DNA from: Acanthochlamys bracteata
Taxonomy: Eukaryota; Streptophyta; Magnoliopsida; Pandanales; Velloziaceae
NCBI GenBank assembly: GCA_019914995.1
Contig: CM034129.1
Span: forward strand, 496,001-560,000
Length of the DNA: 64,000 nt
Direction of reading: 5' to 3'
Below the pieces are notes generated by a model, which was not told where the DNA came from, made no database searches, and was given only the letters and a program-made list of their open reading frames with translations. A program made the translations under genes and the position numbers. Positions 10,334 to 37,860 of this stretch are shown piece by piece; position 1 is the first letter of the stretch, and every line of letters begins with the position of its first letter.

Positions 10334-12274
10334 ATGGAGACTGCAGCGTCTACGCAATACACGGCCGCAGCCGGTCTACGGCCTTCCGCGGCCGCCAGAA
10401 TTCAGTGTCGTGGTCCGACCAACGTACACGTTAGCAGCATTCGAGAGTCTCAGTGTGGAAACCAAGTTCTCTGCAGGGCCACTGCTGCTTCTGTTCAGCC
10501 ACTCGAGGTTTGTGTTGGCTAATTTGTTTGATTTCTGTTTGTGGCATTCTGTCGAACAAGTTATGGGCGGAGATTCGGGAGAAATATTCGGTACCTTGCT
10601 GTTAAGTGTGTGTTTTTTATTTCTCTGTTAGATGAAGCATATACATGAACAGAAAGGTGGAGACTTGGAGAAGTTTAGTATAATGGCTTTATTGCCTTTA
10701 GATGGCCGTTATATGCAAAAGGTGATGGGTTTGCATCCTATTTTCAGCGAATTCGGATTGATTCGTTATCGTGTAGTTGTTGAGGTAATGCATTACAACA
10801 TGTAAGCTCTTAACTCTTATTTTTGGTTCATGCGTTACAAATTTTCAGCTATGAAGCCAAAAAAAAAAAAAAACGCTCACTAGGTATGATATTTGAATAT
10901 GCAGGTTAAGTGGTTGCTTAAATTGTCCGAACTTCCAGAATTTCCGAGGTCCCAAATTTCAGTAAGGATGCCCGTGCCTTCCTTGAATCTATAATTCTCG
11001 ACTTCAATGTAAATGATGCTTTAGAAGTGAAGAAGATTGAGAAAGTAACCAATCATGATGTGAAGGCGGTAGAGTATTTCCTTAAAGAAGAATGTAAAAT
11101 CTGTCCAGAGATTGCAAAGGTTAGTGGGGGAATGCAGCTTCATTAAGAAGATACCTTCTTTTTTTTCTAATGCAAAATATCTTTGGCCATGTTCTTTATT
11201 TTCTCCCTTATTATCTAGGTACTTGAATTTTTTCACTTTACATGCACTTCTGAGGATATCAACAATTTGGCTCATGCATTGGCACTAAAAGAAGCTCTTG
11301 AAAATATTATTCTTCCCTCCATGATTGAATTATGTCAATCAATATGTGCCATGGCAAAAGAAAACACTCACATTCCCATGTTGTCTCGTACTCATGGGCA
11401 GGTATGTATAAACGATCATGTTTTCTTGTTTCATAGGAAGAAACATTCACATTAAAGGATGCCTATATCAAGCCAAATGGTATATTCTGTTAGTACGGAT
11501 ACTTGTCCAAATTTCCACTTTTGACAATGTACATTCAAGAAGTTACTTTCTTGTGTCCATTATAGCCAGCTTCACCTACTACTTTGGGGAAGGAGATGGC
11601 CAACTTTGCTGTAAGATTATATGAGCAAGGGAAGATGTTCTCTGAAGTGCGGATTCTAGGGAAGTTTGCTGGTGCAGTAGGGAACTATAATGCCCATAAA
11701 GCTGCCTATCCAGATGTTTACTGGCCAGCTACAGCTAAGGATTTTGTCAATTCCTTGGAAATAGGATTTAATCCATATGTCACACGGGTATATTTCTGCT
11801 GCAGACCACTGCACTGTATTTTTTCTCCTTGACGTTAACCATATCTGCCTGCAGTTTCATGATTTAAAATCTTGACAGTCAGTATTTCAATGTCTGAAAT
11901 TTGCAATAAATACTATTTAATGAAGGCTTCATGTTATATTTAGATCCATGATTTATTAGTATGGCTAGAATGTCTATAATCTTTGGAAGGATGTGACGTG
12001 GTTCAGCATTCAGCACAGACCGCCCTAGCTCTGATTTAATGAATTAACCTTTTCAAGTAAAGCTTGTCACATATGATTATTATTGGAGGAAGACGACGCA
12101 TTGAATATCTTTGATTTTAAAATTGAATGCTTGGAATAGAAAATATGGCGTATTTATCAGAAAACTGCGATTTATGCATGCATATGCACTTCAGATTGAG
12201 CCTGAATTTACATTTTGTTCAACCTTCTTGCAGATTGAGCCTCATGACTACATTGCGAAGCTCTTTAATACTGT
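10334..12274 (+). pseudogene. ADSL: Truncated adenylosuccinate lyase copy on + strand (exons 1 to part of 6)
   Basis: A 5' part of ADSL, exons 10334-10507, 10632-10784, 10905-11119, 11219-11401, 11566-11787 and 12234-about 12274, with splice sites mostly preserved. Exon 3 is 215 nt instead of the 216 nt of the complete gene; the lost base lies near LSELPEF, so the frame breaks there. Exon 6 stops after codons for [14 protein letters not shown] and runs straight into sequence homologous to the 3' flank of the complete gene. Exons 7-10, including the [10 protein letters not shown] signature, are therefore missing. The exon 1 start is also different: METAAS followed by an Ala/Arg-rich stretch replaces the MELKLVN start, and homology resumes at TNVHVSSIR. 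It cannot make active ADSL. It is oriented convergently to the complete gene. Confidence 0.85.
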
Positions 12275-12680
12275 ACAAAAGCTTAGCGGGCTAGTTAGAG
12301 ATGCTGATTATTGTAACTTTATAATAATTCTTTTTGGTTGGCTTTGTGTAGTGGATACTGTACAAAAGCTATGCAGCAATTTATTATTGTCATCGAATAG
12401 AAGTGTTCCTTGAATCTTAAGTACAATTCTTTGCGTGCTTTGTACCGGGACAATCATTGACTTGATTCTGCTTGCCCACCAATCACGCAAGGATAAGGCC
12501 AGATTGCTTTCAAATTTTTCAATAGAGAAATTTGAATCTTTGAAGGATGCTTGAAAATCATTCTTAGAATGAGCAACGCTATATATAGAAAACTATGTTT
12601 AACCTTTGACCTAGATACTTCCTAAGTCCACGCTCTTAATGACATTATTAGCTAGTCATAATGTATATACGATACACATC
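10408..12680 (+). repeat. Left arm of a large ADSL inverted repeat
   Basis: From within exon 1 through intron 5, exon 6 and then 3' flank, this region is homologous to the reverse complement of about 15790-19570. The arm is shorter than its partner because roughly 1.45 kb (rest of exon 6 through the 3' end of the gene) is missing at about 12274. Identity looks high in exons and lower in introns. The loop between the arms is about 3.1 kb. Confidence 0.8.
12275..12680 (+). repeat. Copy of the ADSL 3' flanking sequence
   Basis: Starting at CTTAGCGGGCTAGTTAGAGA, this matches the reverse complement of about 15790-16185, the region just past the complete ADSL stop codon. Homology fades around 12680, after a segment matching AATGACATTATTA. 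Confidence 0.75.
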
Positions 12681-35530: not shown

Positions 35531-35862
35531 TTCGCTCCTTGTTATTTACGATCACGATATGATTCTACAGATAATTGTTCCGAATTGAATTCTAATTTGC
35601 TGTAGGAGGGAGTTTGTGTTAAAATCCAAATAGTTGAAAGATGAAGAGATATTGATGGAGAAATCTGAGTGCGTAGGGCAGCAAAGCAGAATCTGAAATT
35701 CTTAATCACAGGTTGATCCCCATTAATGATTAAAACCAAAATCTAGCCGAGAGAGGGCAGTCTTTAGAAAGAAGCAAGAGGTTGGAAGAGAAGGCTTCGC
35801 CTAAAGACGAGTATTGTTAAATTGAAAAGTTGGGATCTATTAGAACGGCTGCTTAATCCCAT
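35531..35862. repeat. Spacer C, homologous to 41338-41605
   Basis: From TTATTTACGATCACGAT onward this matches the segment upstream of the DUF863 gene at 41338-41605, including TTGTGTTAAAAT, AAGATGAAGAGATATTGA and GGGATCT followed by CTGCTTAATCCC. The 35.5-kb copy carries about 60 extra bases near 35745-35805. Confidence 0.75.
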
Positions 35863-37860
35863 CACAAATATTTGGATTTTCATGTAAAAATGATAAATTC
35901 TATATTTAGTTCGAAGAAAGGCTTATAACAAAAATATCTGTATCAGGGTAGAAGAATAAAAAATATAACGTCCATGTTTGTGAAAATAGTCCTACTTTGA
36001 AAATTTAGATTGAGATGGTGGCGATTGGGATACCCTTACCTTAATAGCTAGTTTTTGTAGTGCAAGTTTTATTTGATTTGTTAAGAAAGTATCAAAGCGA
36101 ATTATTTATAACAGGACCTTTAAAGTGTAGCCCAATATCGCGTAAATATTTGTATGACAGTATCAGGGAATATTAAATCTCAATTTTAAATCATGAAACT
36201 GCAGGCAGATATGGTTAACATAAGGAGAAAAAATACAGTGCAGAGGCTTACAGTAAAAATACACCTGTGTGACATATGGATTAAATCCTATTTCCAAGGA
36301 TTTGACAAAATCCTTAGCTATATCTGGCCAGTAAATATCTGAATATTCAACTTTATGGGCATTATAGTTCCCTACTGCACTAGCAAACTTCCCTAGGATC
36401 CGCACTTCAGAGAATATCTTTTTTTCCTCATATAATCTGACAGCAATGTTCGCCATTTCCTTTCCCAAAATAGTAGGTGAAGCTGGCTAGAATGGACAAA
36501 AGAAAGTAACTTCTTGAATGTACATTGTCAAAAGTAAAAATTTGGATAAATATGCCGTACTAACAGAATATACCATTTGGCTTGGTATAGGCATCTTTTC
36601 ATGGCATGTTTCTTCCTATGAAACAAGAAAACATTATCGTTTATACATAGAATTTAGACATACCTGCCCATGAGTACGAGACAATATTGGAATGTGAGCG
36701 TTTTCTTTTGCGATGGTACATATTGATTGACATAATTCAATCATGGTGGGAAGAATAATATTTTCAAGAGCTTCTTTTAGTGCCAATGCATGAGCCAAAT
36801 TGTTGATATCCTCAGAAGTGAATGCAAAATGAAAAAATTCAAACACCTAGATAATAAGGGAGACAAAATAAGGAACATGGCCAAAGATATTTTGATTAGA
36901 AAAAAATAAAATGTATCTTCTTAATAAAGCTGCGTTTCCCCACTAACATTTGAAATCTCCGGACAGATTTTACATTTTCTTTAAGGAAATACTCTACCGC
37001 CTTCACATCATTATTGGTTACTTTCTCAATCTTCTTCATTTCTAAAGCATCATTTACATTGAAGTCGAGAATTGCATATTCAAGGAAGGCACAGGCATCC
37101 TTACTGAAATTTGGGACCTCGGAAATTTCTGAAAGCTCAGACAATTTAAGCAACCACTTAACTTGCATATTCAAATATCATACCTATGAGCATTTTCCTT
37201 TTTTTGGCTTCATAGCTGAAAATTTGTAACGCGTGCAGCAAAAAGTCGGTAAGAGTTAAGGGCGTACAAGTTTTAATGCATTACAAGTTTCAACGATTAC
37301 ATGGAAACGAATCAACCCAAATTCGCTGAAAATAGGTTGCAAATCCATCACCTTTTGCATGTAACGGCCATCTAAAGGCGATAAAGCCATTATACTAAAC
37401 TTCTCCAAGTCTCCACCTTTCTGTTCATGTATTTGCTTCATCTAACAGAGAAAAAAAATCACACACACATAATAGCAAGGTACCGAGTATTTCTCCCAAA
37501 TCTCCACCCATAACCTGTTCGACAGAATGCCACAAACAGAAATCAAACAAATAAGCAAACGAAAACCTTGAGTGGCTGAATAGAAGCAGCAGTGGCCCTA
37601 TAGAGAACTTGGCCCTATAGAGAACTTGGTTTCTACACTGAGACCCTCGAATGCTGTTTAGGTGTACATTGTTGACCGTAGAGATAAGAGAACATGGTCC
37701 TTGAACTCCATATACATTTTTTGTTTTTGGACATAACGCGAGATTGTTTTCACTAGCTTCAACTCCATTGACAGAATCAACATATCAATGAAAATCTTTC
37801 AAGAAAACTAGGCAGAGAGGAGCAGAATCGAGCAGGGAGAAAGAAAATGGAGGAAAGAGA
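35863..37860 (-). pseudogene. ADSL: ADSL 5' half, tandem unit 4 (exons 5 to 1)
   Basis: ADSL homology starts at about 36177. This unit keeps SRTHGQ at the end of exon 4 and an intact exon 2 start, but shares the exon 3 frameshift (KENVKSV). In exon 1 a 17-bp sequence, CCCTATAGAGAACTTGG, is tandemly duplicated at about 37596-37629, adding a second frameshift. At the exon 2 end the GAGGTAATG donor context is altered to a TTGTAATG-type sequence, so splicing would be impaired. No exons 6-10. It has the same flank type as unit 1. Confidence 0.85.

Follow-up and report, generated by a model that had tools for sequence, protein, structure and literature searches.

The stretch analysed here, called the window, comprises 64,000 nucleotides of Acanthochlamys bracteata (C4:496001-560000, C4 being contig CM034129.1; a window coordinate is the C4 coordinate minus 496000) and carries a cluster of adenylosuccinate lyase (ADSL) loci. 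These loci were found by self-comparison of 264 contiguous kb of C4, including 200 kb added around the window, and by translated search of the sequence; the genome searched comprised 195.5 Mb in 557 contigs. Between 10418 and 37913 of the window we identified six ADSL loci, namely one intact gene (W), one inverted copy (I) and four same-strand fragments (B, C, D and E), and a seventh, broken copy (P) was found outside the window, some 142 kb from W on its right-hand side.

16321-19647, minus strand: W, intact ADSL gene of ten exons, as judged from exons, splice sites, a 544-aa frame and family matches
19456-19647, 19179-19331, 18840-19055, 18559-18741, 18168-18389, minus strand: exons 1-5 of W
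17568-17684, 17340-17483, 17105-17206, 16775-16843, 16321-16557, minus strand: exons 6-10 of W
10418-12670, plus strand: I, ADSL copy in inverted orientation that begins within exon 1, lacks the remainder of exon 6 and exons 7-10, and regains the 3' untranslated region (3'UTR) and flank
28150-29678, minus strand: B, ADSL fragment from partial exon 1 to intron 5 plus a 100-bp tail, frameshifted
30141-32004, minus strand: C, frameshifted ADSL fragment that extends from the native leader into intron 5, with tail; 98% identity with B
33635-35520, minus strand: D, ADSL fragment, W-like in exons 1-2 and mostly E-like in exons 3-5, frameshifted
36069-37913, minus strand: E, ADSL fragment from the leader to intron 5 plus tail
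C4:657.8-661.4 kb: P, full-length broken ADSL locus

The intact gene and its damaged copies

W has a GT donor at exons 1-9 and an AG acceptor at exons 2-10, and its reading frame is open across all exons. The product scores above the curated cut-offs of NF006764 (708.1 bits, cut-off 446) and TIGR00928 (395.2, cut-off 326.2) and above the Pfam cut-off for both PF00206 and PF08328. Residues 74-529 match solved ADSL structures, the ADSL family match spans at least that range, and the protein contains the fumarase-superfamily signature, a motif of 10 residues. By these features of its sequence, W looks functional.

The copies share 88-98% identity over 1.4-1.9 kb, which excludes chance likeness. 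The self-alignment proposed as a check by an initial annotation of this DNA returned, across the 264 kb and with minima of 300 bp and 80% identity, 30 self-matches, of which 23 involve the ADSL family (one of them through an attached upstream element alone) and 2 more involve an attached block of CNGC-like and RING-gene sequence. When the genome was searched at the DNA level with the ADSL 5' half, 8 matches were obtained, comprising the seven C4 loci and one match on C6 (125 bp, 78%). At the protein level, with 31 candidates scored and counts that are lower bounds, there were at least 44 matches, and all 44 of those listed lie inside C4:506.4-533.8 kb or C4:658.0-661.4 kb; among the seven DNA loci and these 44 protein-level matches, no intact ADSL other than W was thus found. 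Each of I, B, C, D and E (5/5) is incomplete, lacks exons and keeps introns, as partial duplicates do. The claims of the initial annotation that six ADSL loci lie within 28 kb and that only 16321-19647 has all ten exons agree with these results, and its orientations and end points were right; what it missed is that I is cut at its 5' end and internally deleted, that B lacks most of exon 1, and that W has exchanged its leader for sequence of a neighbouring gene, while P lay beyond the DNA it was shown.

The inverted copy had been described as stopping in exon 6, and 10418-12285 is indeed inverted and reaches that exon. Besides being cut in exon 1, I then regains the 3'UTR, since 12282-12670 matches the W 3'UTR and flank (15797-16183, 89.6%), so that exons 7-10 are missing through an internal deletion. 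The two loci are 88.7% identical over 1.9 kb and lie 3.7 kb apart on opposite strands. Sixteen bases at the join in I (12268-12283) recur at 12355, 87 bases further on in its 3' flank, and 12 of them also occur in the flank of W; because of these recurrences, the bases have the look of filler copied from nearby. The exact 21-mers in common with W number 461 for I, 269 for B, 310 for C, 499 for D, 394 for E and 981 for P, numbers that would allow small-RNA pairing with W. P carries three premature stops in the W frame and 1-base indels in exons 5, 6 and 10, and has lost the exon-7 donor.

As controls, adenylosuccinate synthetase was found at one locus in the genome, and SAICAR synthetase as two exon matches 9.3 kb apart, interpreted as one gene. 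An argininosuccinate lyase gene on C11, so named from the best NCBIfam match of two single exons that each score under the whole-protein cut-off, has a local inverted partial copy of its own (1,473 aligned bases, 92.4%).

C11:3881.0-3882.5 kb (L041 499-1951) and C11:3887.9-3889.8 kb: argininosuccinate lyase gene and its inverted partial copy

Among the families looked at, ADSL is thus the extreme case, yet another family has a local broken copy too, and the rearrangement hotspot named in the initial annotation holds in this relative sense only. Lyase_1 matches, tentatively fumarases, were also seen on C8 and at C11:3.36 Mb.

Same-strand fragments, mosaics and selection

B, C, D and E end at one breakpoint about 95 bases into intron 5 (W 18073, corresponding to B 28254, C 30245, D 33739 and E 36173), are followed by a common non-ADSL tail of about 100 bp, and have a 1-bp deletion in exon 3 in common. 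Because breakpoint, tail and deletion are shared, a single unit, already broken by the intron-5 cut and the frameshift, was multiplied into the four fragments. Four head-to-tail copies stopping in intron 5 had been correctly recognised from the outset; the accompanying idea that the 5' half was captured repeatedly and independently is rejected by the same three shared features. Further lesions link subsets of the fragments: B and C share lesions at one base in the first codon of exon 2 and where exon 3 starts, a TAG at the end of exon 4 is common to B, C and D, and about 206 bp next to the tail of B (27944-28149) are common to B and E alone. B lacks about the first 134 of the 192 exon-1 bases, and E has a 17-bp and other indels in exon 1, a lost exon-2 donor and a frameshift in exon 3. 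A genome search with the 100-bp tail and the extension of about 206 bp gave 14 matches, of which 4 are the array itself and the remaining 10 are 47-205 bp long at 69-87% identity, with no close match elsewhere.

Upstream, C runs through its native leader into a 1.6-kb sequence that is dispersed in the genome, and P does likewise, at the same join.

32026-33638, minus strand: dispersed multi-copy sequence upstream of C, also present upstream of P

This sequence, which has intron-like signals, gave 46 genome matches, the long ones on C2, C9, C12 and C17 besides C4; numerous others are short (about 100-290 bp, 69-83%). A truncated copy lies beside B (29674-30144), where, at the junction of B and C, a deletion joined the dispersed sequence to exon 1 at a common AGTGT microhomology. 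The linker between D and E (35542-35860) is a same-strand copy of 41336-41587 at 90-95% with a 67-bp insertion.

We compared each of several copies to two others along the gene in six contrasts, with Fisher tests at split points that were picked after inspection. D is W-like (vs. E) at 35/39 sites in exons 1-2 and at 20/75 sites (2 neither) further 3' (p = 1.2 × 10−10), and I is B-like (vs. P) at 14/20 sites and then at 28/103 (p = 0.0005). P is C-like (vs. W) at 18/22 sites and then at 24/91 (4 neither; p = 4.8 × 10−6), or, with another split, at 20/33 and then at 22/80 (p = 0.001). No significant change along the gene was observed for C between W and E (p = 0.1) or for E between W and C (p = 0.11). 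Several ADSL copies are mosaics, which would make a single tree of the copies misleading and suggests that sequence was exchanged among them; gene conversion or unequal crossing-over would explain the patterns, and any choice between the two would be inferential. Together with the array and the joins, the mosaics support the local amplification and repeated rearrangement that had been proposed for this region.

In pairwise counts made without an outgroup, dN/dS in exons 2-5 was 0.27-0.51 for W vs. the other six copies and 0.41-0.89 among the six damaged copies, with overlapping ranges; for W vs. P it was 0.30 overall, with 0.41 in the first five exons and 0.14 in exons 6-10. The pattern is consistent with one constrained gene among decaying copies.

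The leader of the intact gene

The alignment of W with C, D, E and P ends some 40 bases ahead of the ATG; from there on, W carries sequence duplicated from a neighbouring RING-finger gene (the RING gene).

19648-19695, minus strand: predicted 5' untranslated region of W, consisting of 9 bp of the RING gene (GTCTTGTGG) and the ADSL leader, with no ATG (from comparison of W, the RING gene, D, C, P and E)
19687-20377, minus strand: duplicate of the 3' portion of intron 1 of the RING gene, splice acceptor included (source C4:491706-492397)
20372-23726, no strand assigned: solo long terminal repeat (LTR), TG...CA, with target duplication CGAGA, inside the captured intron
23853-23965, minus strand: copy of the RING-gene leader exon with a GT donor at 23852-23851 and no ATG; 23965 is not taken as a true 5' end
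23944-27875, minus strand: second, 5'-truncated CNGC-like gene copy and the intergenic DNA to the RING leader (original at C4 from about 493.7 to beyond 496.5 kb)
27876-27943, no strand assigned: junction filler of 68 bases between the CNGC-like copy and B

Reading towards the gene, W keeps the splice acceptor of the RING intron, followed by the 9 bases GTCTTGTGG and then the ADSL leader, with a microhomology of about 2 bp at the join. The donor RING gene persists at about 491 kb of C4, where a 267-aa frame matches zf-RING_UBOX, and the part joined to W is thus duplicated from a still-existing locus (C4:491706-492397), as in a chimeric duplicate. On the ADSL side of the LTR, 668 of 697 alignment columns are identical between the captured intron and its source, with 11 gaps and 18 substitutions in 686 bases (2.6%); on the far side we counted 9 substitutions in about 210 bases (4.3%). 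The solo LTR itself, which entered the intron after its capture, is 3,355 bp long and is a dispersed repeat with at least 80 genome matches (the best 40 of 696 candidates were scored). From about 40 bp ahead of the ATG, a duplicated block with the RING leader exon, the first intron and a truncated CNGC-like gene thus stands in place of the native leader of W. Because the captured intron diverges less from its source (2.6% and 4.3%) than the introns of W and P do from each other (5.6-13.2%), the swap is probably younger than the split between W and P.

From this arrangement, W probably uses the captured promoter of the RING gene. The simplest predicted ADSL transcript would consist of the RING leader exon, 48 bases and ADSL from its ATG, with a first intron of 4,157 bases.

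Over about 3.75 kb, the core of the CNGC-like block (23944-27688) shows 2 substitutions relative to C4:492606-496353, together with 5 indels that lie mostly in short runs; in the block, three indels fall in the predicted coding sequence. The far end of the block has 4 substitutions in 187 bases, and the flanks of the core have 2-4% substitutions overall. A structure search with the one CNGC-like frame that was tried matched plant CNGC chains, and two CNGC-like frames of the window had no Pfam match. A 75-bp query for the junction filler beside B matches C4:505844-505899 over 56 bp in inverted orientation (86%). Elsewhere in the window, an FMO-like exon lies at 7039-7686 on the plus strand; with the intron-bearing ADSL, the CNGC-like channel and the RING gene, it is a sign of plant DNA.

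Origin of the cluster and comparison with known systems

The findings above are probably those of a local gene-duplication cluster in a plant genome, made up of one functional-looking ADSL gene and six relics, five of them in the window and one about 142 kb away. A likely route would begin with one tandem duplication of about 24 kb (C4:491.7-515.7 kb) with its ends in the RING intron and the ADSL leader, followed by a deletion; the fragments may then have been multiplied by unequal exchange, with breaks presumably sealed by end joining that used microhomology and copied filler. W would be transcribed from the captured RING-gene promoter, and the intron of about 4.2 kb, with the solo LTR, would be spliced out. 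More tentatively, W may be the sole working ADSL, driven by a hijacked RING promoter after the copies with the native promoter decayed, with opposite-strand fragments perhaps returning small RNAs; we regard this extension as possible but rather doubtful.

Several points weigh against the duplication cluster in this form. The junction filler is inverted relative to its likely source, which lies inside the proposed 24-kb segment; a tandem duplication followed by a deletion would, in its simple form, leave that orientation unexplained, and the route is accordingly tentative in its details. The 24-kb tandem duplication is one route among several, and W may or may not be the ancestral copy. Both the use of the captured promoter and the 4.2-kb intron are predicted, and W could instead be driven by the solo LTR or by intron DNA. 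The genome copy may be incomplete, and only the best candidates were scored, so that a second intact ADSL could exist. The pattern in the CNGC-like core fits recent gene conversion and also fits an assembly or polishing fault; this block is the weakest part of the structure, and its frameshifts are not to be trusted.

The last point bears on the explanation that some or all of the extra copies are assembly artefacts, made by haplotig mis-joins or unresolved repeats. The core differs from the original almost solely by small indels, as ill-polished repeat copies do, and B and C are 98% identical. Against this, all other pairs of ADSL copies differ by 6-12% and have their own lesions, flanks and mosaic patterns, and mis-joined alleles would not yield common frameshifts together with private joins that contain filler. 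Haplotig mis-joins, which the initial annotation had put forward as its refutation, thus do not fit the ADSL copies, an assembly fault being possible for the near-identical CNGC-like block, and as an explanation of the copies we consider an artefact unlikely. Still less probable is that a mobile element took up ADSL 5' halves and inserted repeatedly. The dispersed sequence does adjoin C and P at the same join, but no ADSL piece was found beside it elsewhere, D and E lack it upstream, and beside B it is truncated. In the sequences that were read, in which no systematic search was made, the fragment ends showed neither terminal repeats nor target duplications. We rejected such capture, as ADSL is confined to C4 except for the one weak 125-bp match on C6.

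Inverted duplicates have been linked to small-RNA silencing in Arabidopsis, and the 5' fragments might have been kept by selection because their transcripts or small RNAs regulate ADSL. I and W, on opposite strands 3.7 kb apart and with 461 exact 21-mers in common, are arranged such that small RNAs from I could pair with W. The many lesions and higher dN/dS of the fragments lend no support to a protein function and are silent on an RNA function; we give selective amplification as little credence as capture by a mobile element.

If the relics are plain pseudogenes, the matter is mainly one of annotation, in which B-E, I and P ought to be left out of any count of ADSL genes. If the promoter-capture reading is true, the regulatory DNA of a neighbour has come to control an essential step of purine synthesis. 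Should the leader swap be used in the plant, the locus would offer a readable case of an essential gene with a single intact copy that changed its promoter through local duplication while the copies with the old promoter decayed. The traces left in the sequence (common breakpoints, mosaics, filler DNA and the inserted LTR) could be placed in sequence of time given a related genome or two.

Arabidopsis PAI is a biosynthetic gene with inverted duplicates, and ADSL, too, serves a housekeeping biosynthetic pathway and has additional copies that face the other way. In contrast to PAI, the ADSL copies give no sign of silencing; they are truncated or broken and 88-94% like I. In the literature search, which covered parts of the texts retrieved, no description of a plant ADSL cluster was found. 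A conserved partial gene duplication in the Triticeae has, according to the title of the paper, a function in pathogen resistance (PMC6092874). The ADSL fragments are likewise gene-like partial duplicates of the kind usually classed as pseudogenes, but, unlike in the Triticeae case, any function of theirs would be hypothetical. Partial duplicates that end in introns and chimeric duplicates that join neighbouring genes are classes described in the available part of PMC3449122. As in those classes, the partial copies here end inside an intron and keep their 5' flank, and W is joined to duplicated sequence of a neighbour regardless of gene boundaries. Unlike the examples in that part of the text, no intact copy other than the chimeric one was found here, and what has been joined is a leader and presumed promoter and not coding exons. 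No new class is needed for what is a local gene duplication of a known kind; its notable feature is that the copy with the chimeric leader is the sole intact one found of an essential gene.

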